NCBI GenBank assembly: GCA_024275095.1
Contig: JAJRZV010000075.1
Coordinates: 1-32,877 of the forward strand
Direction: 5' to 3'
Length of the DNA stretch: 32,877 nt
Source of the DNA: a bacterium
GTDB lineage: Bacteria > JAJRZV01
The notes beneath the pieces were generated by a model, which worked only from the letters and a program-made list of their open reading frames with translations, ran no database searches and was not told the DNA's origin. The translations under genes and the position numbers were made by a program. Shown here in pieces: positions 1,857-29,547 of the stretch; position 1 is the first letter of the stretch, and each line of letters starts with the position of its first letter.

Positions 1857-2327
1857 TCACAGCGTGATAATTCCTTTCCGTAGACTTCGGATAATCATTT
1901 CACCCGTGGCCACGTGAAATTCCACTGTGCGGCCGTGTGAACCGCCGAAATCAGCAGCGACAAGAGGAATGTTCAGTTTTTGAAGCAGGGTCTGCACCGC
2001 TTCTACATTCTGTTCCCCAATGTTTGGTATGCGCTGGAGTTTGAAAATAGTAGCTCCCCCCGCTGCCTTTGCTATGATGCGAGAGGGGTTTGCACCTCTG
2101 GAAAGTATTTCTTCGTAAAGCAGGTGGACAGCCCTGTCCATGAATTTTGAAGGGGCTTTGTGTACGGGATGACCGTTTGAGGAGGGGAGAAGAGGATGTG
2201 CCATGCCCCCTATTTTCAGAGCAGGGTCGTAGAACACCACGGCCACACAGGAACCCAGACCGATGGCTTCAAGGATGGCATCTCCTTGAACCACAGCCGT
2301 TTCTGCTATGCCCACGCGAATTTTCAT
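1857..2327 (-). CDS. cheD: Chemoreceptor glutamine deamidase CheD
   Basis: GLGSCVAVVFYDPALKIGGMAHPLLP (catalytic Cys and His context) and AAGGATIF; in che cluster. Confidence 0.93.
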   Translation of the reverse strand: MKIRVGIAETAVVQGDAILEAIGLGSCVAVVFYDPALKIGGMAHPLLPSSNGHPVHKAPSKFMDRAVHLLYEEILSRGANPSRIIAKAAGGATIFKLQRIPNIGEQNVEAVQTLLQKLNIPLVAADFGGSHGRTVEFHVATGEMIIRSLRKGIITL

Positions 2328-2939
2328 TTATACCTTTTCAAGTATAAGTTTTTCCGCTCCATCGGTGGGAATGAGAAAAAAATCAAGCGCAGCAGCCTGG
2401 TCGTCGGAAGCAATGGAAGTATTGAACACAAAGATGTCATCTGTGTTCTGACAGGCAGCGGCCACAACAGCGTCAACCGCGCTTTCCAGGTACTCAAAAG
2501 CAAGAAGAGGCACTGAGGTGATAACCGGTTCAGAAATCATTTCAGAAACAGCGTTGGCAAAAGCTCCCGCGAGAATGTTGCATATCTCGAGAAGAGCGGA
2601 TCGGATGATGTTTTGCTCGTCATCACTCGCAAGGTGTTCGCTGAGTTGTTCTGTATTTATGCTTTGTCCTGTAAGCTGTTCGACAAGTTTGGCGGCATTT
2701 TCGGGGTAAACAACAAAAAGACCTTCCAGGTTGATACCGCCTGTAAACGAGGAGTGGAGTATGACGGCCGGGGCGGTGGGAAGAAAATCTTCGATTGCAT
2801 GCACAGGAACTCGCGTAACTCCGGGAACAGTGATGAGCACTTTTTTTCCTGTAATAACCGAAAGGGCGTTGGATGCATTTCCTGCTCCGATGTTGACTAT
2901 TTCCCTTAAAATGTCGAGTTGAAGCTCTGATATATTCAT
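2328..2939 (-). CDS. cheC: CheY-P phosphatase CheC
   Basis: Two CheC-type motifs: D-ILR-EIVN (first) and S-ALL-EICN (second); adjacent to cheA and cheD. Confidence 0.9.
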   Translation of the reverse strand: MNISELQLDILREIVNIGAGNASNALSVITGKKVLITVPGVTRVPVHAIEDFLPTAPAVILHSSFTGGINLEGLFVVYPENAAKLVEQLTGQSINTEQLSEHLASDDEQNIIRSALLEICNILAGAFANAVSEMISEPVITSVPLLAFEYLESAVDAVVAAACQNTDDIFVFNTSIASDDQAAALDFFLIPTDGAEKLILEKV

Positions 2940-4777: not shown

Positions 4778-5139
4778 TCACCGAGAATCTTTTTTATGAC
4801 TGAGATTACCTTATCTTTTTTGAACGGCTTGGTAATGAAGTCAAGAGCACCGGCCTCAAGGGCCTCCATCACCAGCGATTCCTGCCCCAGTGCACTGACC
4901 ATAATTACCTTGGCTGAAGGATCCATCTGCCGTATTTCACGCAGGGCTTCCAATCCATTTTTAGACGGCATGACGATGTCCATTGTTGTCAGGTCTGGCT
5001 TTAAATTTTTATACATTTCAACAGCTTCAATTCCATTGGATGCTTCCCCGACAACTTCAAATCCTTCTGATTCCAGAATTTCACGTATCATATTCCTCAT
5101 AAAAACCGCATCATCAACGACGAGTATCTTGTGACCCAT
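4774..5139 (-). CDS. cheY: Response regulator CheY
   Basis: 121-aa single receiver domain; KILVVDDAVFMR, MDIVMPSKNG, KPF; 4-bp overlap with cheA. Confidence 0.96.
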   Translation of the reverse strand: MGHKILVVDDAVFMRNMIREILESEGFEVVGEASNGIEAVEMYKNLKPDLTTMDIVMPSKNGLEALREIRQMDPSAKVIMVSALGQESLVMEALEAGALDFITKPFKKDKVISVIKKILGE

Positions 5140-5581
5140 GACTACCCCCCACTTGGATTAATCTTTGAAATTCCTCTTTCAACATACCAACCAACCTTTC
5201 TACGTCTACCACTCGCACTACACCGTAGTCTGTATAAAGTGTTTCCCTCAAAACTTCTTCATTATTCGCATTTTCCTTTTTTCTTTCTATTCTATCAAAT
5301 GAAATAGTCAGACATGAGGATGGATGCACGGAAAGAGCAAGTTCAGGAAAATCCTTGCCTACGGCCACTGCGTAAGTGTGCGTTTCCGCGGGTTTTTCTC
5401 CTGCGAGAACGGCTCCTGAGTCCACAACCAGCACAGCATCACCGTGGAAAAATGTTACCCCCATAAAACTTGTATCTTTCATAAAAGGAAAGGATATAAG
5501 CCTGCTGATTTCGAATACTTCCAGCACAAATTTTTCCTCAAGGGCGAATAGCCGATTTTTATGCCGGAAGGCAAAATACAT
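5114..5581 (-). CDS. cheW: CheW-like adaptor protein
   Basis: 155 aa; YFAFRHKNRLFALEEKFVLEVFEISRLISFPFMKDTSFMGVTFFHGDAVLVVDSG, CheW-like fold; between mcp and cheY. Confidence 0.85.
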   Translation of the reverse strand: MYFAFRHKNRLFALEEKFVLEVFEISRLISFPFMKDTSFMGVTFFHGDAVLVVDSGAVLAGEKPAETHTYAVAVGKDFPELALSVHPSSCLTISFDRIERKKENANNEEVLRETLYTDYGVVRVVDVERLVGMLKEEFQRLIQVGGSHGSQDTRR

Positions 5582-6847
5582 TTATACCCTGAATTCCTCG
5601 ACCTTTTTCTTGAGTTCTACTGACAGGGAAGCCAGATGCTGAGCAGCCTTGTTGAGTTCCGCCATGGAGGCTGTTTGTTCTTCCATGGAGGCTGTCACTT
5701 CTTCTGTTACTGAAGCATTTTCTTCCGCAATGCGGGCGATGCTGTCTATAGTACTGATGAGCTTATCTGCAATGCCGGCCTGTGTTTTGTTAAATGAGGT
5801 AATTTCCTGGACCCTGGTGGCCGTCTCCAGGGTGTTATTTGTAATTTCTTCAAATGTTGAGCGGACCACCTCCATATCTGCTTTGCCTTCTTCGATGGAT
5901 TGAGCCATGATTTTCATTTCTTCCGTGAGTTCCCGGGAGTTTTTCTCCACTGTATCAATCAGTTCGGTTATCTGTGCAGTAGATTTTTGGGTGTTATCAG
6001 CCAGCTTCCGGATTTCCTCCGCAACCACACCAAATCCTCGGCCGCTTTCGCCGGCCAGGGCTGCTTCAATGGCTGCATTCAGTGCGAGCAGGTTCGTTTT
6101 GTTGGAGATACTTGTAATGACGTCGGTGATTTCCCGAACACGGCTGATAACAGCGCTGAATTCGAGAAATTTTTGCGTAGTGCTGGCGGCCCGGTCGAAG
6201 GTGATACGCATTTTTTCCATGGCGGTTGCTACAAGTTCAGAGCCTTTCTGGGCCATTTCCACTGTTTTTCTGACAGCTTCCTCTACATTTTCTGCAATGC
6301 GGGCAGCAGCCAGGGCTTTTTCAGCAGTTTCCTTTATGAAACTGGCGCCTTTTTCTACTTCTTCTGCCTGACGTGAAGCACCCTGGGCAATATTTTCCAT
6401 CGTTTTTGAAACTTCTTCTGCAGAGGCGGTCACTTCTTCTGCAAGTGCACCGAGTGATTGGGCTGAAGCCGCAACACTTTCTGATATTTCGATCATGGAG
6501 GTGACAAGATTTTTGAGATTGTTCCGCATGGCTTCCATGAACTCTTTTAACTCGTCAAATTCATCATAAAATCGAGTATCTTTCCAGGGAATGTCTATAA
6601 GCAGATCACCCCTTGCAACACCTTCACTGAGCGTACGCAGCTTGTCGATTTTCGAAGAGGTGCCCCGAAGGATAAAAAGACCGATAACAGATCCCAGAAG
6701 CAATGCTGATGCTACGGATACGATTTTCTCCAGAACAGGCCCCAGATTTGCGAATGCAAACAGATAGGGAGAGACCACGGATATAAAAATAATGGAAAGA
6801 AATCCCAGTATAAATTTATAAGCGACACCAAACTTACTTTTCTTCAT
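5582..6847 (-). CDS. Methyl-accepting chemotaxis protein with two TM helices and almost no external loop
   Basis: 421 aa; signalling tip [13 protein letters not shown]-type sequence ([36 protein letters not shown]); two adjacent N-terminal hydrophobic segments; SD-like AGGAGG upstream of ATG. Confidence 0.95.
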
Positions 6848-11249: not shown

Positions 11250-13590
11250 GAGATATTCGAACAGCTTCTTCTATGCTGCGGATAAAGTGAAACTGCATTT
11301 TTCGTTTTACGTAGGGAGGTAACTCCTGCACCTCACCCTGGTTAGGAGCAGGTAATACTACTTCTTTAATCCCGTACCTGAGAGCACCCAGTACCTTTTC
11401 TTTAATTCCCCCAACCGGAAGTATTTTACCAGTAACAGTAACTTCACCTGTCATGGCTACATCTTTGCGGACCCTCGTGTTTTTGAAAGCAGAAATAATG
11501 GCCACTGCAATGGTTACTCCTGCACTGGGGCCATCTTTGGGAATTGCTCCTGCTGGAACATGTACGTGTATGTCCGTTGTGTTAAACAGATTTTCGTCAA
11601 TATCGAAATCACCAGAGCGTGCACGTGCAAAACTCAAAGCTGCCCTTGCCGATTCCTTCATGATCTCTCCCAGATGTCCGGTGAGAATGAGGTTGCCCTT
11701 GCCACCTTTCATGAGAACACACTCCACCTTGAGTACTTCGCCTCCATAAGGAGTCCAGGCGAGTCCAAGGGCGACTCCCACTTCTTCATTACCCAGTTCT
11801 GTTTCCGGCTGATACTGCTCATTACCCAGGAACCGGCGGATACTCTGCTTTTTAATAATTACGGGAAGCTGGCGTTTCTTCTCCACAATTTCCACTGCCA
11901 CCTTTCTCAAGACAGAAGCAATGTTTCTTTCGAGATTTCGAAGCCCTGCTTCTCGAGTATAGCCGCGGATGATTTGAACGATGGCGTCATCCGTAAACTT
12001 TACTTTTTCTACGTCGAGGCCATTTTCTTTACACTGGCGGGGTATGAGATATTTTTTTGCGATGTTCACCTTTTCTTCTTCGGTGTAGCCGGGAAGGTAG
12101 ATGACCTCCAGGCGGTCAATGAGTGCGGGGGGGATGGTGTCGGTGATGTTGGCTGTGCATATAAACATCACTCGTGAGAGGTCATAAGGTAGATTAATGT
12201 AATGGTCTACGAAGTTGAAGTTTTGCTCAGGGTCAAGCACTTCCAGAAGAGCAGAGGATGGATCACCGCGGAAGTCCATCCCGAGCTTGTCAACCTCATC
12301 CAGCATAAACACGGGATTGCTGGTTTTTGCCTGGCGGATGCCCTGGATAATTTTTCCAGGCATGGCTCCCACGTATGTGCGCCTGTGACCCCGGATTTCC
12401 GCCTCGTCGCGCACACCCCCGAGACTGACACGAACGAATTCCCTCCCGAGTGCGCGTGCTATGGACTTTCCGAGTGAAGTTTTCCCTACACCGGGTGGGC
12501 CCACAAAGCAAAGGATAGGTCCCTTGTGATCTGGTTTTAACGTTTTGACTGCCAGAAACTCAATGATTCTTTCTTTGACCTTTTCCAGGTCATAATGGTC
12601 CTCGTCCAGTATTTTGCGTGCTCGTGAAATATCCAGATTATCTGTGCTGTATTTTTGCCACGGTAGCTCCAGGAGCCAGTCCAGATAAGTCCGCACCACA
12701 GAGGCTTCTGCTGAATCAGGATGCATGTTTTGAAGTCTCTTAAGCTGTTTAAAAGCTTCTTCCTTGACCTGCTCGGGCATGAGAGCTTCTTCTATGCGCT
12801 TTTGCAGTTCCTGAATTTCTTTTTCACGGTCATCCAGTTCTCCGAGTTCTGACTTGATAGCTTTAAGTTGTTCCCGCAGAAAATATTCTTTTTGTGCTTT
12901 GTCTATAACCTGTTTGGCCTGCTCCTCAATTTTTTGTTTCACCTTGAGAAGTTCGAGTTCACGTGCCAGGTATTTGTTGACCGTGGTGAGCCTTTTTACA
13001 GGGTCTGTTTCTTCAAGTATCGCCTGAGCCTCTTCCACTTTTAGATTCAGATTGGATGCGATAAGATCTGCCAGGCGGCCTACTTCCTGGATGTTTTCAA
13101 GCATTGATATGAATTCCGGAGGTACTACTTTGGTTATTTGTACAATTTCGTTTACCAGTTCAAGCGTAGCCCTTTTCAGAGCTTCCAGGTGAATATCAAA
13201 TTTGGGTTGCTCACCTTCCTCAAGAAGTTGAATTTTAGAGAGTATGAAAGGTTCCCACTGGGTTACTTCTACAAGGCGCGCACGCTTCAGCCCCTGAACC
13301 AGGGTCTTGAGTGTCCCGTCAGGCATTTTGATCATGCGCAGAACACTTACTACAACTCCCACTGTGAATAAATCATCCTGCCGTGGATTCTCCACCTCAC
13401 TCTGTTTCTGAGCTACCATAAAAAGCAGGCGGTTATTTTTGAGAGCTTCATCCACTGCTTTTACAGATGTAGGCCTTCCAATCATCAAGGGGGAGATGGC
13501 GAAAGGCAGAAGCACCATGTCTCGAAGAGGTACGGTGGGAAGCAGCTCTGGAATTCTGATTTGTTCGTGGCCGGTAACTTCTCCGTTCAT
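11206..13590 (-). CDS. lon: ATP-dependent protease Lon
   Basis: 794 aa; Walker A GPPGVGKTSLGKS, Lon N domain LPTVPLRDMVLLP, protease active site KDGPSAGVT. Confidence 0.98.
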   Translation of the reverse strand: MNGEVTGHEQIRIPELLPTVPLRDMVLLPFAISPLMIGRPTSVKAVDEALKNNRLLFMVAQKQSEVENPRQDDLFTVGVVVSVLRMIKMPDGTLKTLVQGLKRARLVEVTQWEPFILSKIQLLEEGEQPKFDIHLEALKRATLELVNEIVQITKVVPPEFISMLENIQEVGRLADLIASNLNLKVEEAQAILEETDPVKRLTTVNKYLARELELLKVKQKIEEQAKQVIDKAQKEYFLREQLKAIKSELGELDDREKEIQELQKRIEEALMPEQVKEEAFKQLKRLQNMHPDSAEASVVRTYLDWLLELPWQKYSTDNLDISRARKILDEDHYDLEKVKERIIEFLAVKTLKPDHKGPILCFVGPPGVGKTSLGKSIARALGREFVRVSLGGVRDEAEIRGHRRTYVGAMPGKIIQGIRQAKTSNPVFMLDEVDKLGMDFRGDPSSALLEVLDPEQNFNFVDHYINLPYDLSRVMFICTANITDTIPPALIDRLEVIYLPGYTEEEKVNIAKKYLIPRQCKENGLDVEKVKFTDDAIVQIIRGYTREAGLRNLERNIASVLRKVAVEIVEKKRQLPVIIKKQSIRRFLGNEQYQPETELGNEEVGVALGLAWTPYGGEVLKVECVLMKGGKGNLILTGHLGEIMKESARAALSFARARSGDFDIDENLFNTTDIHVHVPAGAIPKDGPSAGVTIAVAIISAFKNTRVRKDVAMTGEVTVTGKILPVGGIKEKVLGALRYGIKEVVLPAPNQGEVQELPPYVKRKMQFHFIRSIEEAVRISLAEETEASVAAGRS

Positions 13591-14048
13591 TCTGATTCCT
13601 CTGAAATGATAGGTATGTTGTATACAGGTCGACGGCGTTCCTGAATTTTTTGCAGCTTCACCTTTAACACGCCGTTTTTTAAAATTGCTTTGGCATCTCT
13701 CATGTTACAGGGCGTAGGTACTTCGACCACTCGGCGAAACCTGCCAAAGTGTCGTTCGGCCCTGAGGTAACGAAAGTTTGCTGATGGATCAAGTTTCTCA
13801 TTTGTTTTAAAGCCTTCTACTATAACCGTGTTTCCTGTTGTGTAGACTCGTAATTTTTCTACCTTGACCCCCGGAATTTCGAACAAAAGAACAACATGAT
13901 CTTCTGTCTCGTATACATCTGTTTCCGGGAAAAGAATAATATCCTCTGCCTCGGCATCGTGGGGCCTGTAGCCGAAAAGACGTTCAAAAAGTCTTTCGAT
14001 TTCTTCCTGAAGAAGAGCCATCTGTTCAAGGATCATATTTCGCTTCAT
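13587..14048 (-). CDS. Hsp20/alpha-crystallin family small heat-shock protein
   Basis: 153 aa; ACD-type sequence VVLLFEIPGVKVEKLRVYTTGNTVIVEGFK...GRFRRVVEVP...AILKNGVLKVKLQK; 4-bp overlap with lon. Confidence 0.92.
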   Translation of the reverse strand: MKRNMILEQMALLQEEIERLFERLFGYRPHDAEAEDIILFPETDVYETEDHVVLLFEIPGVKVEKLRVYTTGNTVIVEGFKTNEKLDPSANFRYLRAERHFGRFRRVVEVPTPCNMRDAKAILKNGVLKVKLQKIQERRRPVYNIPIISEESE

Positions 14049-14052
14049 GACA

Positions 14053-14090
14053 ATGTAATTATGGGGTGAGTTTAGGTTTCTATCAAGGGT
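14053..14090 (-). promoter_or_regulatory. Candidate sigma32 (RpoH)-type heat-shock promoter for hsp20-lon
   Basis: Minus strand CTTGAT (14082-14087), 15 nt, CCCCAT(AAT) (14061-14066), resembling CTTGAA-N13..17-CCCCATnT; immediately upstream of the hsp20 ATG. Confidence 0.7.
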
Positions 14091-14301
14091 TTGGTTTGTA
14101 TTCCTTATTTAAAAGAGATTTAAACTGGGTACTGTGGGACAAAAATTAAGAAATTTCCAGTGGATATAGATCAGGAGAGAAATGCTTGCTTGTGGTCAAA
14201 AAAGTAAAACAATGCTTAATTTGGCTTTTGTGCTGAAAGGAAAGATGTTATAGTCCCGCACGACAAATTAAAACAAACGTTTAATATTTACGGCCTCTAC
14301 A

Positions 14302-16783: not shown

Positions 16784-17160
16784 CCCGGCGTGTATTTGGT
16801 GATTCCACGGCTTTGCGGAGAGGAGTAGAGCGTACCCACAGCAATAAGTTTTGCAAGAATAAAGAGCAGGCGTCCAAAGGCAAATCTGTGATTTTCCAGG
16901 CGACTGAGCACCCGGATGCGTTTTTCAGGGCTGAGCAGGTGAAACGGTCTGAAAGTTAATGCTACAGCTGGAAGTATCAGGTTGAGCACGAGTAGAGCGA
17001 TTTTGAGTCCCAGGGCACCTCCACGAAACTCTTTCAGCGCGGTAATGACACGCGTGTAAAGAGGTTCTTCAGGATCTTCATTTTTCCACTCAGGAGCAAA
17101 GGATTCGATGAGTGCATAAAATATTTTTTGTGTCAGTGTCAAAGTTCTACGAATCCCCAC
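16771..17160 (-). CDS. Small membrane-associated protein resembling the N-terminal region of long-chain alcohol oxidase-type GMC proteins
   Basis: 129 aa, one hydrophobic segment (ALGLKIALLVLNLILPAVALTF), then FRPFHLLSPEKRIRVLSRLENHRFAFGRLLFILAKLIAVGTLYSSPQSRGITKYTP; overlaps the GMC ORF start by 13 bp. Confidence 0.7.
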   Translation of the reverse strand: MGIRRTLTLTQKIFYALIESFAPEWKNEDPEEPLYTRVITALKEFRGGALGLKIALLVLNLILPAVALTFRPFHLLSPEKRIRVLSRLENHRFAFGRLLFILAKLIAVGTLYSSPQSRGITKYTPGCAS

Positions 17161-19022
17161 ATGTTAAATGGTGGAATCTCCATTTTTATGCATCCGTTGT
17201 CGCCAGCACGGGCCTGAATTTTTTGAGTTTTTTCCATTGTATAAAAAATCACTTCGTGTATAGAAGAAAGGTTATTTCCGCAGTAAGTGAGAGTAAAGGG
17301 TGATGTGTAGACGAAATCGCGGTCAATGACAGAATAATTATAGTTAAGAAAGTGCAAAATGACGTGGCCATCGCCCTTTACGGGAATAATGCCGAGGGTA
17401 TCGCTCGCATCTGTGAAGATGGATGTTTTGCCGCCCAGCCTTTCCTGCACGGTACTGATGAGTCGCTGGGCTATTTGGGAGCTGCCGGTGGACCAGTACG
17501 TGGAAGCTTGAGGGAGGTAAAGCACATCTATGCCCGCGCTTCGGGCCTTATTCAGTAAACCCGCAGGATCGTGACTGTTGCAGGGTTCGTAAGGGACGAT
17601 AATGAGCTTTACGTCGGGAAGCGTGGCAGAGGCGGTATTGGTGGAGACGAGGTCGCCATCTCCTTCGTAAAGTGCGACAAATGGAATGTGGGCTTTTTCG
17701 AGAAGAGTGGTCATTCCCAGGTAACCCGTGTGTACAGAGCCTGAAGGCATCCACGGGGTTGCAAATCCCTGGATTGTGTATTCTTCGAGAGCACATGAAT
17801 AGTCGTAGAACACGGCCACATCACCGATGGGTTCCGTTTCTCTTACAATGTCAGAGTGTTCACGGATGAATTCTGTTACCATCGCTGCGGTATCTGCTGG
17901 AAGTGTGGCTGCCCCGGATACCGTAGAGGTGCCACCGCCGAATACGTACGCGTGATAGGGAATGAGAAATGATGCCCCGGAGGCGGCGGCTTCGGCAAGC
18001 CTGAATGCAATGGCCTGCCACTGCCTGCCGGATATGGAAAGAGCGAGAAGGTCAATGATTGTCGGGAACATCACCACGGGTTTGCCCGGAGAGATGGCTC
18101 TTGCCAGCAGGTAGGTGCCAACGTATCTGGCGTAGGGTGGATACTCCACGAAATTTTCAGATACGGTGAAATCCATGTCTTCGATAAAATGTTGTTTGTT
18201 TGGAGTGTAAAAAAATGTGTTGGCAGCAAAGGCGATATCCCTGCCGGCATACTCTCTTGCAAAGGTGATGAGTTCCCGGATCTGCTCTTTTCTGCTTTTA
18301 AGCTGGAAATACACAAATTCTCTGCGCAGTGCAACGTTGGGGTCGCCTGCGGGTGTGCTGGCACCGTGCTGGATCAAATATTTCCTGTAGTCGAATGTAC
18401 TGATGTCAGTAATACCGAATTTTTCTAAAAGTTCATCCGGGCTGAACCTTTCAGCAAGGTAATTCCTGAAGGCCTGCATGCAATACTCGCAGAAACCGGC
18501 CACGTAAAGGTGCCCACCGATACCTTCTATCTCGTCGAAATGAACGGCGTCCACGCCACCGTCGATGTGTTCCTTGATGCGCTCTTTCATGAATTCCTGC
18601 CAGTGGGGATTATTGTGACATGGAAGGTAAGGAGGGTCAGGTTGAATCCACAGGGCCCTGACGGGATTGCCATGGATATCTCTGCAGGCAAAATCTTCAA
18701 GATTGGTTTCACTTCCGACAACAGAAGCACTGGCCTGCATGGTGGGAAAGTTGGAGGCCACCTTTATGCCGTGTCGATGGAGTTGTTCGACGTACGCGAG
18801 TTCTTCTGTATTGAACCCTCCGTGATAGACAGACCAGGTGATCACCTCCGCTCTCACATCCAGCAGGTATGAGAGAGGAGGTTTTCCGTAAACAAATACC
18901 GTGACGTCATTCAACCAATCGTTAGAAAAGATGTAAGGTCCTCCGCCTGACTCTGACACACACCCAGTTAATATGGCGGCGAATAAATATGCCCCCAGCA
19001 CCGACCATTTGAGATTAATCAT
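17139..19022 (-). CDS. Lipoprotein with a glycoside-hydrolase-like (GHL-type) TIM barrel
   Basis: Start chosen at MINLKWSVLGAYLFAAILTGC (lipobox LTGC); the ORF track extends to 19109. GVDAVHFDEIEGIGGHLYVAGFCEYCMQAF resembles hypothetical glycosyl hydrolases with FDE and CxxC. Confidence 0.75.
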   Translation of the reverse strand: MINLKWSVLGAYLFAAILTGCVSESGGGPYIFSNDWLNDVTVFVYGKPPLSYLLDVRAEVITWSVYHGGFNTEELAYVEQLHRHGIKVASNFPTMQASASVVGSETNLEDFACRDIHGNPVRALWIQPDPPYLPCHNNPHWQEFMKERIKEHIDGGVDAVHFDEIEGIGGHLYVAGFCEYCMQAFRNYLAERFSPDELLEKFGITDISTFDYRKYLIQHGASTPAGDPNVALRREFVYFQLKSRKEQIRELITFAREYAGRDIAFAANTFFYTPNKQHFIEDMDFTVSENFVEYPPYARYVGTYLLARAISPGKPVVMFPTIIDLLALSISGRQWQAIAFRLAEAAASGASFLIPYHAYVFGGGTSTVSGAATLPADTAAMVTEFIREHSDIVRETEPIGDVAVFYDYSCALEEYTIQGFATPWMPSGSVHTGYLGMTTLLEKAHIPFVALYEGDGDLVSTNTASATLPDVKLIIVPYEPCNSHDPAGLLNKARSAGIDVLYLPQASTYWSTGSSQIAQRLISTVQERLGGKTSIFTDASDTLGIIPVKGDGHVILHFLNYNYSVIDRDFVYTSPFTLTYCGNNLSSIHEVIFYTMEKTQKIQARAGDNGCIKMEIPPFNMWGFVEL

Positions 19023-19181
19023 GTTCCCCATATTATAACGATATTGGGCCTGTGGGTAATGTGATTTAAAAAATTTTTTCAAGCTGCAGATAGAGTGATG
19101 AAATGCCATTCTTTTTTTGTCGGTAGAGAGAGCGAGTGATATGTGTTAAACTGGAATGGAAATTATTTTGGAGGTTTTTTT

Positions 19182-20558
19182 ATGAAGAAAAAAATTCTGC
19201 TTGTGGAGCCCCGCGGACGCGGTGAAAGTATGTTTGTCTATCAGTCCAATTTTCCCCTTATGGGTCCGGTTGTATTGGGTACCATTCTCAAAGCAAAAGG
19301 TCATGAAACCCTTGTGTACAGCGAAAGCATGGTCGGTAGTGATGTGCCTGATGCACTTCTTGCGTGGGCAGACGTGCTTTCCCTCTCTTTGCTGACGCTT
19401 ACATCTCTGAGAGGCTATCGTATTGCGCGTCGCTACAGGGAATTGAACCCCAAGGGTGTGGTGGTCCTTGGAGGAATACACCCGTCCTTTATGCCGGAAG
19501 AGGCACTGGAATATGCAGATTATGTTTTTTGTGGTGAGGGTGAGGAGGTGTTTCCTGACTTTTTGGAATTCGGCTCCGATGAGAAGATCATTACCGGCGG
19601 GAAGGTTTCGGATATGGATAGCCTGCCCATTCCGGACTGGACGATTGTCGCAGGCTTCGAGAAGGTGAAGGTTCAGCCCGTGATGACTTCCAGAGGGTGC
19701 CCTTATGATTGCAGTTTTTGCACGGTGACAGCCATGTTTGGAAGAAAGTTCAGGATGGCTTCTCCCGAGAGGGTCCTGGAAGAACTGAAAAGAACAGACA
19801 AAAGCATGGTGTTCTTTTATGACGATAACATGGTGGCTTCTCCTGCCCGGATGAGAAGAATTGCAGAGCTCATGATAGAGAGCAACCTTAAGATAAAATG
19901 GTATGCCCAGATGCGCGCTGACGCGTCACGGGATCCCGAACTCTTACGCCTCATGCACAGGTCCGGTCTGCGTCACGCGTTTATCGGCTTCGAATCGGTG
20001 AGTGATGCAACACTGGAGGAGTACAACAAACAGCAATCCGCCGAACAGATAAAAGCGGCCATAAAGGCGTTTCATGAGGCCGGCGTGGGTGTGCACGGGA
20101 TGTTTGTTTACGGGTCGGATGCTGACACCCCCGATATTTTTGGAGAAACGCTGCGATTTTGTCGTGATGCGCGGTTGGATACAGCACAGTTTGCGGCATT
20201 AACACCTTTTCCCGGCACCAGACTTTACGAGAAACTGCAGCGTGAGAATCGGATCCTGCACTCACGCTGGGATTTTTACGATGGGTTGCACGTGGTGTTC
20301 AAGCCCAGGAACATGTCACCGGTGGACCTTCAGCAGGGGGTATTTCAATCGTTTCAGGATTTTTACTCTCTTATTTACACTTTTGGTGATGCACTTGATG
20401 CAGTGGCGGTGGAGGTGCTTTCATTTTTCAGAAAGAAGGCAATACCCGGCGTGAGGGATGCCATTATAAGAGCTGTCGTCAGGTCGTCTTTCATGAAATG
20501 GAAGCGTAAAGACTGGTGGTATCTCGATTATCTGGGAAACTTCTGCGAGACCGTTTGA
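19182..20558 (+). CDS. B12-binding-type N-terminal domain plus radical SAM protein
   Basis: Start at ATG 19182 after GGAGG; SRGCPYDCSFCTVTAMFGRKFR (CxxxCxxC); N-terminal Rossmann-like MGPVVLGTILKAKGHE...VVLGGIHPSFMPEEALEYADYVFCGEGE. Confidence 0.92.
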   Translation: MKKKILLVEPRGRGESMFVYQSNFPLMGPVVLGTILKAKGHETLVYSESMVGSDVPDALLAWADVLSLSLLTLTSLRGYRIARRYRELNPKGVVVLGGIHPSFMPEEALEYADYVFCGEGEEVFPDFLEFGSDEKIITGGKVSDMDSLPIPDWTIVAGFEKVKVQPVMTSRGCPYDCSFCTVTAMFGRKFRMASPERVLEELKRTDKSMVFFYDDNMVASPARMRRIAELMIESNLKIKWYAQMRADASRDPELLRLMHRSGLRHAFIGFESVSDATLEEYNKQQSAEQIKAAIKAFHEAGVGVHGMFVYGSDADTPDIFGETLRFCRDARLDTAQFAALTPFPGTRLYEKLQRENRILHSRWDFYDGLHVVFKPRNMSPVDLQQGVFQSFQDFYSLIYTFGDALDAVAVEVLSFFRKKAIPGVRDAIIRAVVRSSFMKWKRKDWWYLDYLGNFCETV

Positions 20559-20800: not shown

Positions 20801-21970
20801 TTACTGAGTACCTGCCGTAATGTTTTCAGGGTAAGCACTTTCAGTAAGAAAAAGGATTTTAACCGGGGGCAGAGCCGTGGAAATACGCGTCATATCCCCT
20901 GTGGCTTCGTTGACTATGACGATGCCCGGGTTCTGAAAGTCGTTGTTTGCAATCCAGATTTCACCGTTATTCACTTCTAAATCGGAGATAGTGAAACCGT
21001 CAGCCTGGAATATCACGTCGGTGCTTCCTGTGGGGAAGTCATAGCTCACAACAGACATTTTGCAGCCGGAGGCACCCCAGATTCCACATTCTCTGGTGGC
21101 GACGATTGCGAACAATGTAGCTGCGTCTTCTGAGATGGAAATATCAAAGAGGTTTCCCCCCAGTACGCTTTCAGTAATTTCAAGCGAGGCTGTAAGTGCC
21201 ACGGGGTCAATCGCCACCACGCCGCCGTCACCCACTCTGTCATTGTATCCAGCGCACGGGAGATAAAAGACATCTTGAGAAGGGTTTTCCACAAAATCTT
21301 CCACGGGGTTTGACACTGGAAGGGGAATAACCTTTGCAATTTTTGAGGTTTCGGTATTCAGCACCGCCACTGCAGAACCGTCTGTGGTGATGGACCACGG
21401 CCAGCCTTTGTCTGTAACCCAGCGCTGTAACGCGATGAACACAGTGCCGTTTTTCTCTGCGAGATATGCGGCTTCCGGGTTACCGTCGGAGTCGGCATAT
21501 GCACTGATGTCCACCGGAGATGTTACAGAAAGGGAAGGCACAGGGCTCATGACCAGGATCTGCGGAACACCGTACCGTGACACGTACGCTTTGCCGTCTA
21601 CAAATTCAATGTCATAGGGATTGGAGCCGCTACCTGTTGATACCTGGTAAATGGTGGCGAAGCCCTGCCGGGGATCTATGACCTGGACGTTGTCGGCATA
21701 CATGCGGTTGATCACGTAAATAAGGCCGTCGTGAAGTACGGCCTGGTCCACGTCGGAACCCACCGTTCCACTTTTTTCGTAGACAACACTTCTGCTTTCC
21801 AAGTCAACAACGCTGAAGCCACCGGTCGTGTAATCCGTGCTGAGGATGAAAGCCCCGGCCACACCTTCGGCTTTTTCTGGACCGTTGTCCCCGCATCCAG
21901 CGGAGAGCACAGCGAGGACGAGCAAGACAGTTACAGCACTACCACATTTTTTCATGTGACACCTCCTCAC
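20801..21970 (-). CDS. YncE-like beta-propeller lipoprotein, candidate BtuG-type cobalamin-binding protein
   Basis: Lipobox LAVLSAGC; repeated propeller-blade sequences (GGFSVVDLESRSVV, NPYDIEFVDGKAYVSRYG, AVLNTETSKIAKVIPLP, ISDLEVNNGEIWIANND); 4-bp overlap with the TonB receptor gene in the B12 uptake operon. Confidence 0.8.
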   Translation of the reverse strand: MRRCHMKKCGSAVTVLLVLAVLSAGCGDNGPEKAEGVAGAFILSTDYTTGGFSVVDLESRSVVYEKSGTVGSDVDQAVLHDGLIYVINRMYADNVQVIDPRQGFATIYQVSTGSGSNPYDIEFVDGKAYVSRYGVPQILVMSPVPSLSVTSPVDISAYADSDGNPEAAYLAEKNGTVFIALQRWVTDKGWPWSITTDGSAVAVLNTETSKIAKVIPLPVSNPVEDFVENPSQDVFYLPCAGYNDRVGDGGVVAIDPVALTASLEITESVLGGNLFDISISEDAATLFAIVATRECGIWGASGCKMSVVSYDFPTGSTDVIFQADGFTISDLEVNNGEIWIANNDFQNPGIVIVNEATGDMTRISTALPPVKILFLTESAYPENITAGTQ

Positions 21971-23877
21971 GTGTTTTTTTGAAATTTTGGTGAATACTGG
22001 ACGTAGAAATATAACCCGCGTCCCGGGAGCGGATACCCCAGGAAGTCGTACTCGCGTGTGTTAAAAACATTTCGTACAGTGAGTTTTACAGTCATCTGGT
22101 TTTTCCAGATCCCAAGTGCCATGGAAAACGTGTGCGTGGCAAATGGACCGACATGGAAGGCATTGGTTCTGTCCAGAAATTTTTTACTTTCAAAGCGTAT
22201 CCTGTAGGTGAAAGAGAAAGGTTCCAGGTTGTATTGAAACATGAACACACCCGAAAGGAGAGGTTGGCCCGGTATGTATTTGCCCTTCCAGAACGGGACA
22301 CTCCCGGTGTCACGGGTGTAAATGATGTTGACAGTAGCCGTTGCCATCCATCGCTTCAATCGGTAGTGACCGGATATTTCTGCGCCTGCGGAAACGGCGG
22401 AGTCTACACTTTCAGCACGCACGGTAAACTGAGAGTTCTGGATGAAAATGTGCAGGTCCCTTGCAGATACGAGAAAAAGCGTGCATTCGAGGTAAAGTGA
22501 CGGCCGGTGAAATCTTATACCGGTTTCATATGTGGTTCGCTTTTCCGGGGATATGTCAGGGTTGGGAGCGATGAATCCTCTGTCCCCGGCAATTTCCGCC
22601 ATGGAAGGTGGTTGCACCAGATGAGTGATGTTGAAAAACACTGAAAAACGGCTGTTGGAGCGCCAGAGAAGCCCTGCCGAAGGTTCCACAAACCAGTAAA
22701 CGTTGCGTTCTATTTTGGCATTCACAGGAAACAGGGGGCGGCCTGATAGACGAAAGTGAACAAGGCGCAGGCGTCCAAATGTCCGCAGATTGGTAAATTT
22801 TCTGCTCATGTCCACATTGAAGAAAACGTGTGATGTGTGGAACCCGTACGTACCGTTATTAATGTAGTCGCGCCCCTTTTCTGACGAGAGGAAGATTCCA
22901 GCCCCTGTAGAGATGAACCATGCTCTAACAGTAGTGGGAATGTATATTTTTATGCCGCCTTCCTCGAGCAGGCCTTTTTCATCCTGAGAAAGCAGTCCCA
23001 CCTCACTGTAAGGGTCGTAGAAGCGTTTGCTGGAGAACCGGGCGTGCATCGTGACTTCCGCATGCCGGGGCTTCTGCAACCTGAGCGTGCTTCCTGCAAC
23101 AACTGTGGCATCCTTGTATCGTGCTGCAGATGATTGAAAGGTGTATATACCCGGAATGCCGCTTTCACGTTTAACGGCAGTGATGAAACTCCTTGTTTCA
23201 ATGTGCTCGCTGTTTGTGGAGATAAAGAGGTATCCGCCTCCCGTGGAGTGGTCGTTGTTCGCACGTGTCACTTCGATGTCGTCGTCGGGGTTAAAGGGGG
23301 TGCCGTTGTCGCTGAGAAAGGTAAAATCACCTCGCGTGTAGTTGTATCCACTTCCTGCAGCAATGCTGAATCTCTTTGTAGATGTGCCCCAGAATACATG
23401 GCCTCCTCCGGTGGAAAATGACCCTGCGTAGGTGCTCAGGGTAAATCCCTGAATGCGTTGTTTAAGGTGGAGGTTTACTGCACCGGCTCCGGAGAGAGGA
23501 GAGAGACTTGAGGGAATGTAGGAGCGGTACAGGTCGGCGTTTTCAAACATCCACGCAGGAAGGCTGCCGAGGTCCTGGATGCCGAACCTTGCGTCACCGA
23601 GTGGTACGCCTTCCAGAAATATGCCCACGGCGGACGTGGAAGAACCACGTATGGAAACGGCTGAAAAGGCACCGCTCCCTGTAAGTTCACGCGATACCAC
23701 ACCAGGTGTTAATGCGAGTATCTGGGCCAGGTTTTCATTCCCGCTAAACGCTCTGGTGATGTTTACCGAACCTGAGGCCAGGGCAGGGTCCGGCGGTGCG
23801 GTGGAGGTAAGCTGGATAGGAGCGCGGTATAAAGTGCCCTGTATGAACGCGAGCAAGGCAAGAACTTTCAGCATCAT
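21967..23877 (-). CDS. btuB: TonB-dependent outer membrane receptor, BtuB-like
   Basis: 636 aa; plug LAQILALTPGVVSRELTGSGAFSAVSIRGSSTSAVGIFLEGVPLGDARFGIQDLGSLP; C-terminal barrel NQMTVKLTVRNVFNTREYDFLGYPLPGRGLYFYVQY; B12 operon context. Confidence 0.85.
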   Translation of the reverse strand: MMLKVLALLAFIQGTLYRAPIQLTSTAPPDPALASGSVNITRAFSGNENLAQILALTPGVVSRELTGSGAFSAVSIRGSSTSAVGIFLEGVPLGDARFGIQDLGSLPAWMFENADLYRSYIPSSLSPLSGAGAVNLHLKQRIQGFTLSTYAGSFSTGGGHVFWGTSTKRFSIAAGSGYNYTRGDFTFLSDNGTPFNPDDDIEVTRANNDHSTGGGYLFISTNSEHIETRSFITAVKRESGIPGIYTFQSSAARYKDATVVAGSTLRLQKPRHAEVTMHARFSSKRFYDPYSEVGLLSQDEKGLLEEGGIKIYIPTTVRAWFISTGAGIFLSSEKGRDYINNGTYGFHTSHVFFNVDMSRKFTNLRTFGRLRLVHFRLSGRPLFPVNAKIERNVYWFVEPSAGLLWRSNSRFSVFFNITHLVQPPSMAEIAGDRGFIAPNPDISPEKRTTYETGIRFHRPSLYLECTLFLVSARDLHIFIQNSQFTVRAESVDSAVSAGAEISGHYRLKRWMATATVNIIYTRDTGSVPFWKGKYIPGQPLLSGVFMFQYNLEPFSFTYRIRFESKKFLDRTNAFHVGPFATHTFSMALGIWKNQMTVKLTVRNVFNTREYDFLGYPLPGRGLYFYVQYSPKFQKNT

Positions 23878-24644
23878 TTTGGCGGTTCTGCGACAATGTG
23901 ATAGTGCCCCTCAGGTGATCGGTGCACGTGAATTTTTACCTGAAAGGCGTGTTCTAACACGTGGGTGCCGACAAGTTCATCAGGAGTGCCTGAAAAGATG
24001 ATTTTGTGACCTGATAACACGTATACAGTATCTGCAATGCTGAGTGCCGTGGAGAGGTCCTGGGTAACGAATACAATGGCCTTGCCGCTGGCGCGGAGTT
24101 TTTTGATGACTTCTACCGCGGCTACTGATGCGCGGATGTCCATGAAAGGTGCAACTTCGTCGAAAAGAATGTAATGACTTTTGCCCACAAGTGCAGTTGC
24201 GAACGCCACGCGGGCTTTTTCACCCTGGCTCAGGTGATTGAAATCTCTTTCCAGCAGATGAATGATTTTTAACTCTTCTGCAGCATTTTCTACAGTCCTT
24301 ATGTCATTCTCAGTAAACGGCTGCAGCAAGCCGCGTAACGGAATGCGTGAGAGAAGTAAGAAGTGTTTTACCTTCATGGGATGAGGTAATTCATTGTAAA
24401 AGCAGATGTACCTTACAAGTTGAGCACGGGCTTTACGAGATAGATTAAAAAGGTTGTTCCCTTCCACATATACGTGTCCACGTGAGGGGTGGAGTATACC
24501 GGCAAGAATTTTGAGTAATGTGGTTTTCCCGGCGGCGTTGGGGCCAATGATGCACGTGATCTTTCCTGATGCGGCCAATACGGACACGCCCCGAAGTACG
24601 GTGTTTGTGCCGTAATGGTAATGTATGTCTTCAGCCCTGAGCAC
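23874..24644 (-). CDS. btuD: ABC transporter ATP-binding protein, BtuD/FecE type
   Basis: Start reassigned to GTG at 24642-24644 with SD GGAGGG (track start 24701); Walker A GPNAAGKTT, signature LSQGEKARV, Walker B YILFDE. Confidence 0.9.
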   Translation of the reverse strand: MLRAEDIHYHYGTNTVLRGVSVLAASGKITCIIGPNAAGKTTLLKILAGILHPSRGHVYVEGNNLFNLSRKARAQLVRYICFYNELPHPMKVKHFLLLSRIPLRGLLQPFTENDIRTVENAAEELKIIHLLERDFNHLSQGEKARVAFATALVGKSHYILFDEVAPFMDIRASVAAVEVIKKLRASGKAIVFVTQDLSTALSIADTVYVLSGHKIIFSGTPDELVGTHVLEHAFQVKIHVHRSPEGHYHIVAEPPK

Positions 24645-25575
24645 GTACGGCCCTCCACATGAGATATGCAAGTGCAGGTGCTCCAATAACAGCCGTGACA
24701 ATGCCCACCGGCACCTCTACAGGAAAGGCGCTTCGTGCGAGCGTATCAGCGAGTGTGAGAAAAGCACCACCTGTAAACGCCGAGAGAAAAATTACACGAA
24801 ATGCTCTGCGATACCCGGTGAGCCTCACCACGTGCGGTATCACAAGCCCGACGAACCCCACAATGCCGCAGATGGCCACAGCAAGTGCTGTAAGGACCGA
24901 TGTCACGATAAGTGTGAGCAGGAGAATTTGAGACGGCTGAATTCCTACAGAAAATGCAAAGTCTTCCCCTGCATTGAGTGCTTCCAGTGGCCGTGAGAGC
25001 AACAGGAGAAAGGGAAGAGTAACAGCCCCTCCTCCTAAAGCAATGAAGAGCGTTTTTGCTGTGCCCAGTGATAACTGGCCGCTGAGGAACGCTAAGGTTG
25101 AAGCATAACGTTCTGGCAGGAATGCAACAATGTTTAACATGACGAGTGCAGCTGCAAAGGTGCTTATAGCAATTCCTGCAAGTATTACAGTTGCAGGGGA
25201 AAATCGGCCGGTACCTCCAGCAATAAAAATTGTTGCAAGTGCTGCTGTGCCTCCACCTGCAAAACCTGCCAGCCATAACAGCTCCGAAGGCAGGCCTGCA
25301 ATAATCCAGCCTGTCATGCCGAGCGCAGCTCCGGAAGAGATCCCTATCAAATAGGGGTCTGCCAGGGGATTGCGCAATGCCATTTGAAGCGCAGCACCTG
25401 ATGAGGCCAGATAAGCTCCTACCAGTACCCCCGCGGACGTTCTCATAAGCCTGAGAGTGAAGATCGGACCTTTAGGAAGATAGAATCCAGAGGAGCCCCA
25501 CAGAAGTGATAGCAGGACAGCAAGAATGCATAATGAAAGAAGTATCAAGGGTCTTGCTGCTGCTTTAGCGCGCAT
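24631..25575 (-). CDS. btuC: ABC transporter permease, BtuC/FecCD type
   Basis: GAALQMALRNPLADPYLIGISSGAALG, CGIVGFVGLVIPHVVRLTG; start chosen at MRAKAAARPLIL (track start 25650 lies deep inside btuF). Confidence 0.93.
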   Translation of the reverse strand: MRAKAAARPLILLSLCILAVLLSLLWGSSGFYLPKGPIFTLRLMRTSAGVLVGAYLASSGAALQMALRNPLADPYLIGISSGAALGMTGWIIAGLPSELLWLAGFAGGGTAALATIFIAGGTGRFSPATVILAGIAISTFAAALVMLNIVAFLPERYASTLAFLSGQLSLGTAKTLFIALGGGAVTLPFLLLLSRPLEALNAGEDFAFSVGIQPSQILLLTLIVTSVLTALAVAICGIVGFVGLVIPHVVRLTGYRRAFRVIFLSAFTGGAFLTLADTLARSAFPVEVPVGIVTAVIGAPALAYLMWRAVRAQG

Positions 25576-26356
25576 GGCTGCTGCACCATTTTTTGATGCG
25601 TTCCAGCGCCTTAAAAATTCCAGGTCCCGGACGCATGAGATTGTTGTCATTTACATGGATAAAGCCTGTACGGGGAAGCAACTGTAGAAGAACATCCGGT
25701 TTCTTCGACGAGGGCAGAATAATAACTTCCGGGTTGATTTCCTGGAGTTTTTCGGCGTCCAGATAGAAATAGCCTCTGCCGTAGTCAGCCGCGTTTTTCA
25801 AGCCTGCTTTCGTGAGAAGATCGTGGATAAAAGTGTCTTTTCCAGCGGCCATGGGCGGTGATACCTCGATTAAGGCCATGGCTGTTAAGGATGGACAGGG
25901 TGGAATTGAGAGAATTTTTTTTGCCTGATTCAGGGTCTCTTTTGCCACGGGTTCCGAGTGAAACAGGTGCCCGAGCTTTTTTATCCATGAGAAAATATCT
26001 TCAATGTTTTTTATCGTGACCACGAGGGTTTTTACTCCCGCTCTTTCAAGTGCACCTTTGATATGAGGTGGATTACCTTCAGTGGATATGAGTACAAGGT
26101 CTGGTTGCAGCGCAATAATTTTTTCGAGGTCGGGATTGGTGTAAATACCCACACGTGCAATGTGCAGTTTTGGAGGAACGGAGCTGAAATAGCTGACACC
26201 TGCCAGGTGGTCGAGACCCCCGGCGGCGATAACCATATCTGCAAGTGAGGGTGCAAGTGTGACAACAGATGGTCGCACTACAGCATTTGCGCCGCCCGCA
26301 AGCTGCACCGATAGCAGGAAAATCAAGATTTTAGTTGCCTGTGTGACACTTTGCAC
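25565..26356 (-). CDS. btuF: Periplasmic cobalamin-binding protein, BtuF type
   Basis: 263 aa, GTG start, signal peptide; VVTLAPSLADMVIAAGGLDHLAGVS...NPDLEKIIALQPDLVL; next to btuC. Confidence 0.9.
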   Translation of the reverse strand: MQSVTQATKILIFLLSVQLAGGANAVVRPSVVTLAPSLADMVIAAGGLDHLAGVSYFSSVPPKLHIARVGIYTNPDLEKIIALQPDLVLISTEGNPPHIKGALERAGVKTLVVTIKNIEDIFSWIKKLGHLFHSEPVAKETLNQAKKILSIPPCPSLTAMALIEVSPPMAAGKDTFIHDLLTKAGLKNAADYGRGYFYLDAEKLQEINPEVIILPSSKKPDVLLQLLPRTGFIHVNDNNLMRPGPGIFKALERIKKWCSSHAR

Positions 26357-26362
26357 CGGACA

Positions 26363-26392
26363 CCTCTCACTCCCTCCTCGGGGAGATTGAGG
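26363..26392 (-). promoter_or_regulatory. Candidate SD-sequestering hairpin (riboswitch expression platform)
   Basis: Minus strand CCTC-AAT-CTCCC-CGAGGA-GGGAG-TGA-GAGG: 5-bp and 4-bp helices around a 3x3 internal loop; the last GAGG lies in the btuF SD GAGAGG. Confidence 0.55.
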
Positions 26393-26398
26393 CTACGA

Positions 26399-26579
26399 CG
26401 GGTTCAGGCAGGTCTCCTGGCTCTGGGATCATCGCCTGCCTCCCGCCTTCCCATCCACCTTCGCATTGCGCTTGCGGTGGACAGTGGCACCATGGGAGGC
26501 GGCTCCCCCATTACAGTGGCGGGACCGCGCCGGATTTTCACCGGCTTCCCTTTTAAGCCCCGACGGGCACCTGAACCCG
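26399..26579 (-). ncRNA. Cobalamin (B12) riboswitch aptamer
   Basis: Minus strand contains GGGAAGCCGGTGAAAATCCGGCGCGGTCCCGCCACTGTAA and GAGCCAGGAGACCTGCC; perfect 10-bp P1 CGGGTTCAGG/CCTGAACCCG. Confidence 0.97.
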
Positions 26580-26598
26580 GAGGAGCCTCGTTGGTCGC

Positions 26599-27429: not shown

Positions 27430-28698
27430 TCAGACTTTTTCTATCCCGGGGTTCTTTTTGATTGAGCAGTACTCTCCACACATTGTGCACACGTCGTTAA
27501 TGGAAGGAGGAGCTGAGGCTCGGAGTTTTCTTGCCCTGGTAGGGTCTATGGCGAGTTGAAATTGCCTGTCCCAATCGAGAAGTTTTCGCGCTCGTCCCAT
27601 TGCATCGTCTCTTTCGCGTGCGCCGGGTATCCCCTTCGCGATATCACCCACGTGTGCTGCAATACGCGTTGCCACAACGCCCTCTTTTACTTCTTCCACA
27701 TCGGGGAGCTTCAGGTGCTCAGCTGGCGTGACGTAACACAAAAAGTCAGCTCCCTTTGCAGCGGCGATGGCCCCTCCGATGGCTGCCGTAATGTGGTCGT
27801 AACCAGGAGCAATATCCGTGACCAGTGGGCCAAGCACGTAAAATGGAGCACCATGGCATAACTTTTTTTCTATAAGTACATTTGTTTCAACCTCTTCTAT
27901 TGGAATGTGTCCCGGGCCTTCAATCATTACCTGAACTCCCGCATCCCAGGCACGTAGGGTCAACTCACCAAGTATGTTGAGTTCTTCGATCTGGGCCATA
28001 TCCGTGGCATCTGCAAGGCAACCGGGCCTGAGCCCGTCGCCCAGGCTCAGGGTAACGTTGTGTTCCCGTGCAATGGCCAGTATTTCATCGAAATATTCGT
28101 AGAGTGGATTTTCACGGTTGTTTGTTCCCATCCATTCAGCAATCAGAGAGCCTCCACGGGATACAATTCCCAGTACTCTGGGATACATGCGAAGTTTTCG
28201 CAGTGATCCCCTGGTAACACCGGAGTGAATGGTCATGAAATCCACCCCCAGCTCTGCCTGCCTGCGAATTACATCAATAAGTTCTGAAACGGTCAGGTCA
28301 GTAAAGGCTTTTCCCTTCATGCGTGCGGTTACCGCTGCCTGATACAGGGGAACCGTGCCGACTGGGACCGGGGATACGTCAAGCATGGTTTCGAGGATAT
28401 GCCATACATCTCCGCCTGTGGAGAGGTCCATGATTGTATCGGTACCTGCTTCTACAGCCGCGGAAAGTTTGGCAATTTCTTTTTCCAGGTCCGCGATATC
28501 AGGGGATGTACCAATATTTGCGTTAACTTTTGTGGAAAGTTTTTCACCCACTCCCACGGGCTCAATGGCTTTACGTCTCGAGGAATTTTTCAGAATGACG
28601 GCCCTGCCTGCGTCGACAAGTTCTTCGAGCTCGCGTGCATCAATCTTTTCCTTCGTGGCCACGAGGAAAATATCTTCTTTTTTTACCGGAAATCTCAT
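27430..28698 (-). CDS. thiC: Phosphomethylpyrimidine (HMP-P) synthase ThiC, short form
   Basis: 422 aa; VILKNSSRRKAIEPVGVGEKLSTKVNANIGTS, DLSTGGD, IEGPGHIP, CTMCGEYCSIK cluster motif. Confidence 0.95.
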   Translation of the reverse strand: MRFPVKKEDIFLVATKEKIDARELEELVDAGRAVILKNSSRRKAIEPVGVGEKLSTKVNANIGTSPDIADLEKEIAKLSAAVEAGTDTIMDLSTGGDVWHILETMLDVSPVPVGTVPLYQAAVTARMKGKAFTDLTVSELIDVIRRQAELGVDFMTIHSGVTRGSLRKLRMYPRVLGIVSRGGSLIAEWMGTNNRENPLYEYFDEILAIAREHNVTLSLGDGLRPGCLADATDMAQIEELNILGELTLRAWDAGVQVMIEGPGHIPIEEVETNVLIEKKLCHGAPFYVLGPLVTDIAPGYDHITAAIGGAIAAAKGADFLCYVTPAEHLKLPDVEEVKEGVVATRIAAHVGDIAKGIPGARERDDAMGRARKLLDWDRQFQLAIDPTRARKLRASAPPSINDVCTMCGEYCSIKKNPGIEKV

Positions 28699-28716: not shown

Positions 28717-29547
28717 CTAACACATTTTACCACTGATTAATGTATTGAGCATACGGTGGTGTGTGTCACACAGGTTAATACTTCGGGAGGCATGGACGCG
28801 GATAAGGTCTTCCTGAAAGTGAAAGTTATACAGACGACACTCAGGAGAGGAACAGAAACCTTCGCCCAGCAACTGGTAGAAAATTGCCTGAAGTGCACAT
28901 CCTGCTGCGACAACAGCAATGCGCGGATCTCCATGCGCTAAATATTTTCCACTGTGGCGGACTTTCGCGATGGCATCTGCCACGTCTGCCTGTGCTAAGG
29001 TGGACATCTGTAACCTGTCCAGATAGTATGAACGGGGTTTTGCGGGACCTTCTACAAGTCCTCCAATGGAAATGACAGATGGCTGCCAGAGGATAAGGTA
29101 TCGGGCATGATAACGCAGGTCATTTTCGTCGTATGTCATAAGAAGCTGATCAGTTATTACAATGCAGGTTGTGTTAAGCGAAGCTTTTATTTTTCTATTC
29201 ACAATTTCCCATGTCATAACGGCGTATTCGAATCCATCGTAGGGAACACCGTACGCAGGGGCAGCGTTGTTTACAATGCGCTTTTTTTCATACTGAAGTT
29301 CTACAGGTGTTGGAGTGCGGTTTTTTTCTTGAAATTGTGAGAAAGGATTGATTATTCGCATGAGAACGAGGCGTGTTGCCAGCTCTTCGTACTGTTTTTC
29401 ATCGGGAAGAGGAAAAAGGGGAATGCATGATTTTACAGTGATGCCGAAGATAGAATGTAGCTCTTTTGCTATTTCGCCGCTCAGGCGCTCTCCTTCTGAG
29501 CCTTCGAAAAAGAAGTAGACGGAGAAACTATCCTTACTTGGAATCAC
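28717..29547 (-). CDS. Archaemetzincin-like protein with degenerate catalytic motif, thiamine-operon associated
   Basis: 276 aa; C-terminal [47 protein letters not shown] resembles archaemetzincin HExxHxxGxxHCxxxxC...C..C but lacks the catalytic residues; overlaps thi4 by 14 bp. Confidence 0.65.

Follow-up and report, generated by a model that had tools for sequence, protein, structure and literature searches.

Does a B12-capture lid of the BtuG type exist outside the Bacteroidetes? Members of the BtuG family bind corrinoids with femtomolar affinity, are exposed at the cell surface and form a stable complex with BtuB. Published work describes such lids as exclusive to Bacteroidetes. The question is raised by a 32,877-nucleotide stretch of bacterial DNA (the window) in which a sequence-only reading had placed a lipoprotein with YncE-like propeller repeats at the end of a riboswitch-controlled B12 operon, and had proposed it as a BtuG-type capture protein in a host without any obvious Bacteroidetes signature.

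The operon and its last gene

The operon stands as described. All of its genes lie on the minus strand, in the order cobalamin riboswitch, btuF, btuC, btuD, TonB-dependent receptor and propeller lipoprotein, and its parts up to the receptor are identified by matches to Rfam, Pfam and NCBIfam models. The features on which the analysis draws are as follows.

26390–26589, minus strand: cobalamin riboswitch (RF00174), operon leader; 131.3 bits, gathering score 31.5
25565–26356, minus strand: btuF-like periplasmic binding protein; PF01497 at 7e-22, NCBIfam BtuF among the matches
24631–25650, minus strand: btuC-like FecCD permease; PF01032 at 6e-67
23874–24701, minus strand: btuD-like ABC ATPase; PF00005 at 4e-22, corrinoid and B12 ATPase models among the matches
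21967–23877, minus strand: BtuB-class TonB-dependent receptor, 22-stranded barrel with plug; PF00593 at 1e-23, PF07715 at 4e-9
22423–22440, minus strand: tip of receptor loop EL8, motif QNSQFT (residues 480–485), between predicted strands 15 and 16
20801–21955, minus strand: propeller lipoprotein (BtuG-like), ATG start; assigned by family profile, AF2 fold and Foldseek
21893–21907, minus strand: lipobox LSAGC with mature Cys21, as read from the sequence
21473–21502, minus strand: family motif AYADSDGNPE (consensus FADADGLPE), C-D loop of blade 3; D135, D137, G138 and E141 conserved at 89–95%
21422–21427, minus strand: Gln157-Arg158, A-B loop of blade 4, with Gln157 at the end of strand A; Q conserved at 86%
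20733–20661: tRNA-Met, after the lipoprotein gene

One detail of the earlier description does not survive. An overlap of 4 bp between the lipoprotein start and the receptor stop needs the GTG at 21970, which sits upstream of the lipoprotein's Shine-Dalgarno sequence. Because a perfect GAGGAGG (21962–21968) precedes the ATG at 21955 by six bases, the ATG is the likelier start, and the two genes would then be separated by a gap of about 11 nt, counted to the receptor stop at 21967. The lipobox is confirmed within the N-terminus MKKCGSAVTVLLVLAVLSAGC, and the residues that follow the cysteine, GDNGPEK, resemble no clear Bacteroidetes export signal, the rule for which may not be that of this host.

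Elsewhere in the window, a chemotaxis cluster at 1857–6847 comprises CheD, CheC, CheA (with Hpt, P2 and CheW domains) and a methyl-accepting protein, and a 656-residue protein at 17139–19109 has a very weak GH42 match (0.034) as its sole family match.

Relation of the lipoprotein to BtuG

As a single sequence, the lipoprotein has no match in Pfam, DUF5074 included, in NCBIfam or among PDB chains searched with phmmer, where BtuG is not hit directly; the sequence criterion published for the BtuG family is a BlastP value of e-10 (PMC6143338). A pattern scan over 84,980 species genomes yielded 65 loci, and a profile built from 63 family members was run against 177,635 PDB sequences. Among distinct sequences, BtuG takes all of the first nine places in this search (2.5e-11 to 2.6e-8), ahead of WD40 proteins at 4e-5 and of YncE at 1e-3, and the main alignment to BtuG is co-linear. 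DUF5074 is matched weakly by 4 of the 63 relatives (best value 1.3e-5).

Structure prediction, which had been suggested as a check on the fold, gives a seven-bladed propeller of 28 strands (AlphaFold, AF2; pLDDT 91.7, pTM 0.91). When this model was compared with 350,542 PDB chains using Foldseek, the first eight hits were BtuG1, BtuG2 or BACUNI chains (2e-15 to 1.5e-13, TM 0.66–0.71); an archaeal surface-layer propeller occupies rank 9, and the siderophore lid XusB first appears at rank 16 (1e-10). Sequence profile and fold comparison therefore agree on BtuG. The "propeller" half of the YncE-like label thus holds, whereas the "YncE" half is loose, the family profile favoring BtuG by many orders of magnitude and the single sequence matching no family. 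Similarly, the suggestion of an independent or distant version of the receptor-plus-lid arrangement is retained in its second sense; the detectable homology to BtuG makes an independent origin less likely. YncE and YncD (PqqU) of E. coli also pair a propeller with a TonB-dependent receptor, but YncE is much the weaker profile match and the ligand is PQQ rather than B12; we know of no riboswitch in that system.

Propellers of this fold include enzymes, and a few family members give weak lactonase and NHL matches, so that one might regard the lipoprotein as a lactonase-, YncE- or PQQ-class enzyme that processes corrinoids or some other ligand and is not a lid. We consider this very unlikely given that the window protein itself matches no family, that pairing with a receptor gene is strict across loci (see below), and that the best matches are ligand-binding lids.

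Conservation across the family points to one side of the propeller. Blades were delimited manually on the strands of the model; on this assignment the A-B and C-D loops average 2.08 bits, compared with 1.20 for the loops B-C and D-A (permutation p = 1e-5). In BtuG2, three aromatic residues, Trp194, Trp272 and Tyr316, constrict the cavity round the upper ligand (PMC10404256). Profile alignment places Trp194 at the near-invariant Gln157 and Trp272 at an LGG(D/N) turn in the C-D loop of blade 5; the B12-contact residues of BtuG are not kept in the family, as the replacement of Trp194 by Gln157 illustrates, and the family motifs NRxGxDN, SRY, FADADGLPE and QRL occupy places where BtuG has other residues. 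Judged from these alignments, the conserved face is the one with which BtuG binds B12, although its chemistry differs.

The lipoprotein is best read as a remote homolog of BtuG that nevertheless belongs to a family of its own, in which the pocket residues differ. Like BtuG1, BtuG2 and BtuG3 of B. thetaiotaomicron and BACUNI_02894 (PDB 3DSM), it has seven blades and is encoded beside a BtuB-type receptor under a cobalamin riboswitch; it is also a lipoprotein, has BtuG as its top match by profile and by fold, and has its conserved positions on the matching face of the propeller. It differs in that identity is only about 14–18% and escapes a single-sequence search, in the substitution of glutamine for Trp194, and in the lack of a clear Bacteroidetes export signal, while many of its relatives have a C-terminal tail rather than a lipid and reside in other phyla.

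Pairing with receptors and possible routes to the surface

A TonB-dependent receptor lies directly upstream of the propeller gene on the same strand in 58 of the 60 other non-redundant loci with upstream DNA. The exceptions are L056 and L017; for L017 the upstream sequence extends over only 1.7 kb. With contig identity inferred from coordinates, RF00174 maps to the start of the receptor gene in 47 of the 50 genomes searched and elsewhere upstream in the operon in L022 and L019, giving 49 of 50 at the operon; L056 (Leptospiraceae), which has neither receptor nor riboswitch nearby, is the sole genome of the 50 without one. Two remote relatives of the lipoprotein (34% and 29%), from unrelated genomes, are both found behind TonB-dependent receptors under cobalamin riboswitches. 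The linkage of propeller, receptor and riboswitch is far beyond chance. In addition, pairwise distances among lids track those among receptors (Mantel r = 0.94), a correlation to which shared species history contributes, and BtuC-like permeases are present within the flanks taken in 21 of 51 loci.

By record title, the loci come from Eisenbacteria, Krumholzibacteria, Latescibacterota, Gemmatimonadota, Deltaproteobacteria, Myxococcota, Bdellovibrio, Fibrobacteres, Leptospiraceae/Spirochaetota and others, several being titled as groundwater, lake or sea; none of the 65 is titled Bacteroidota. A few show variant arrangements. In a delta-lineage operon, the receptor gene lies between two propeller genes (L019:8695–10011 and 12892–14172), and the riboswitch precedes the first of these. 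The frame after the propeller gene carries a cobalamin adenosyltransferase domain in one locus (L004:10865–12505; PF01923, 1.5e-51), and the following gene is TonB in another (L005:8059–8865).

The AF2 model of the window receptor (pLDDT 88.1) has 22 strands, and the protein is a TonB-dependent barrel with plug that falls into the cobalamin class by profile ranking: XusA is the top match of the receptor family profile, and Bacteroides BtuB1 and BtuB3 and E. coli BtuB are among the top six distinct PDB sequences. On the NCBIfam BtuB models TIGR01779 and NF007926 the receptor scores 24–25 bits versus cut-offs of 600 and 836. The receptor fold proved uninformative as a pointer to the ligand, PqqU being the top Foldseek hit.

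The XusA match, together with the fact that XusB is itself a propeller lid, might suggest that the lipoprotein binds a siderophore or metal chelate and is merely co-regulated with B12 uptake. XusB and XusA of Bacteroides do resemble the present pair as a propeller lipoprotein on a TonB-dependent receptor, but their ligand is a siderophore, the fold match is weaker, and no cobalamin riboswitch context is known to us. With that riboswitch at 49 of 50 operons, a lid much closer to BtuG, and a cobalamin adenosyltransferase frame after the propeller in one locus, a siderophore or chelate lid seems extremely improbable.

Returning to the reading of the receptor as a B12 transporter, its EL8 loop merits attention. 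EL8 of the B. thetaiotaomicron receptor fills the pocket of BtuG and dislodges B12 (PMC10404256). The Q, N, S and Q of the EL8 motif are kept in 42, 44, 48 and 40 of 55 receptors, respectively, and the motif is absent from the host's four other receptors. Profile alignment sets QNSQ against the stretch of BtuB3 EL8 that contains Tyr538, and an aromatic residue at that position is not conserved among the family receptors. The window receptor shares with BtuB1, BtuB2 and BtuB3 of B. thetaiotaomicron and with E. coli BtuB a 22-stranded TonB-dependent barrel with plug, and these proteins are among the top profile matches; the QNSQ motif, however, is not seen in the aligned BtuB sequences, and the window receptor lies under the NCBIfam BtuB cut-off.

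Family members take two forms, having either a lipobox or an ordinary signal peptide with a C-terminal tail of about 100 residues. The lipobox occurs mostly in "delta" lineages, Bdellovibrio, Myxococcota, Fibrobacteres and the window host. Some 40 relatives carry the tail in place of the lipobox, mostly as a sorting domain, and these belong mainly to Eisenbacteria, Krumholzibacteria, Latescibacteria and Gemmatimonadota. Eight tails were scanned. Matches of the seven sorting-type tails to FlgD_ig and T9SS sorting-domain models range widely in strength, with TIGR04183 values from 5e-8 to 6e-3, several of them under the curated cut-off. Of the genomes with tailed members, 25 of 28 have SprA_N, the marker of the T9SS translocon, compared with 3 of 17 genomes with lipobox members (Fisher p = 2e-6, confounded by phylogeny). 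Such a pairing would be expected of a protein that has to be located outside the cell and takes whichever route is available. The window host has no SprA and uses a lipid anchor; its lipoprotein, too, would presumably face outwards.

The eighth tail, in L052, is a different domain. This second extracytoplasmic domain, which matches LIC_13355 lipoproteins weakly and belongs to no Pfam family, forms a fusion with the propeller there (L052:10144–10854) and occurs as a neighboring gene at L037:4831–5628, L032:10307–11134, L025:5760–6563, L023:511–1854 and L019:9998–10915. By its position, comparable to that of BtuH or BtuJ, it could be another corrinoid-binding surface protein. Assignment of the L052 domain as DUF4465/BtuH-like was rejected on finding no Pfam or PDB match.

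A different orientation of the lipoprotein must also be weighed, in which its lipid faces the periplasm and the propeller, as a B12-binding protein or chaperone like a YncE-like propeller, aids the handing of B12 from receptor to BtuF. The glycine at +2 after the lipobox cysteine, with no known surface-export signal in the host, would fit such a location, as would L005 and L060, which have neither lipobox nor sorting tail. On the other hand, the T9SS-type tails in SprA lineages point outside the cell, the operon's own BtuF already covers the periplasm, and the homology is to BtuG, not YncE. We regard a periplasmic role as unlikely.

A probable B12-capture lid in a host outside the Bacteroidota

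The ranking of BtuG first by both profile and fold, the cross-phylum linkage to riboswitch and receptor, and the conserved pocket-side face support the BtuG-type reading put forward from the sequence. We estimate a probability of roughly three in four that the lipoprotein is a BtuG-like seven-bladed propeller serving as the B12-capture lid of the adjacent BtuB-class receptor. The window protein very likely works like BtuG in principle, though it has neither a direct sequence match to BtuG nor the BtuG pocket residues. We infer that the riboswitch would permit expression of the operon when B12 is scarce, and that the lipoprotein, held by its lipid on the outer membrane, would catch a corrinoid on the conserved A-B/C-D face and close over the receptor barrel in a complex. 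By analogy with B. thetaiotaomicron, EL8 of the receptor might then push the corrinoid from the lid into the barrel, from which TonB-driven uptake would deliver it to BtuF and BtuCD.

The host assembly is 97% complete and no 16S gene was found in it, so RpoB was used for placement. The RpoB tree contains open forks and several doubtful long rows, namely L082 and a root group of six rows in which mis-picked frames are probably present, and was used for broad placement alone. In it the host sits with lineages represented by Syntrophobacteraceae, Myxococcota and Bdellovibrio sequences, among others, and not within the well-supported FCB clade formed by Latescibacteria, Eisenbacteria, Krumholzibacteria and Fibrobacteres. 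None of the nearest 59 genomes compared is closer to the host than the same domain. The earlier remark on the missing Bacteroidetes signature is thereby upheld: the host is not Bacteroidota and groups with delta-like lineages.

The restriction to Bacteroidetes does not describe these loci, the host being outside the FCB clade and the relatives titled as many other phyla. A literature search limited to open-licence papers returned no report of BtuG or of a cobalamin-linked propeller outside Bacteroidetes. PF16819 propellers do co-locate with 40% of one DUF4465 cluster in a family that spans eight clades (PMC13398666), which hints at a wider spread of BtuG, so that databases may already contain part of this picture implicitly. 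The finding of a BtuG-like partner for B12 capture outside Bacteroidota, as one member of a broad family, is real and well supported. It appears likely, on the comparisons above, that lid-assisted B12 uptake is a widespread, multi-phylum strategy among B12-dependent bacteria and no speciality of the Bacteroidetes, with a separate BtuG-like family that reaches the surface by a lineage-specific route (lipid anchor or T9SS tail) and has other chemistry in the corrinoid pocket and EL8 than BtuG and BtuB. If so, lids would have to be seen as a response to scarce B12 that bacteria use generally, and the ejection model could be tested on another set of residues in pocket and EL8 that has diverged from the first.

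This BtuG-related partner of BtuB-class receptors under cobalamin riboswitches occurs across many phyla, mostly in genomes seemingly unable to make the corrin ring. CbiL is above its cut-off in 1 of 31 genomes (Syntrophobacteraceae), and the host, which is included in this set, has no match at that level; sub-threshold CbiL matches fall mostly in frames of about 450–540 residues, which we take to be sirohaem-type methyltransferases. The host has six proteins with B12-binding domains above cut-off, and this, together with the lack of a convincing CbiL, fits dependence on scavenged corrinoid.

Several further observations concern corrinoids in this host. A second cobalamin riboswitch (L078, G000:C114, 89–274, minus strand) points off the end of a short contig, leaving the gene it controls unassembled. 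Upstream of the B12 operon, a ThiC-like gene (27430–28698) lies beside a DUF6775/DUF7001 metallopeptidase-like gene (28717–29547) and also scores on BzaB, a model for B12 lower-ligand synthesis, below the BzaB cut-off. Finally, a BchE-like B12-binding radical SAM protein is encoded at 19143–20558, convergent with the B12 operon, and is a possible user of the imported cofactor.
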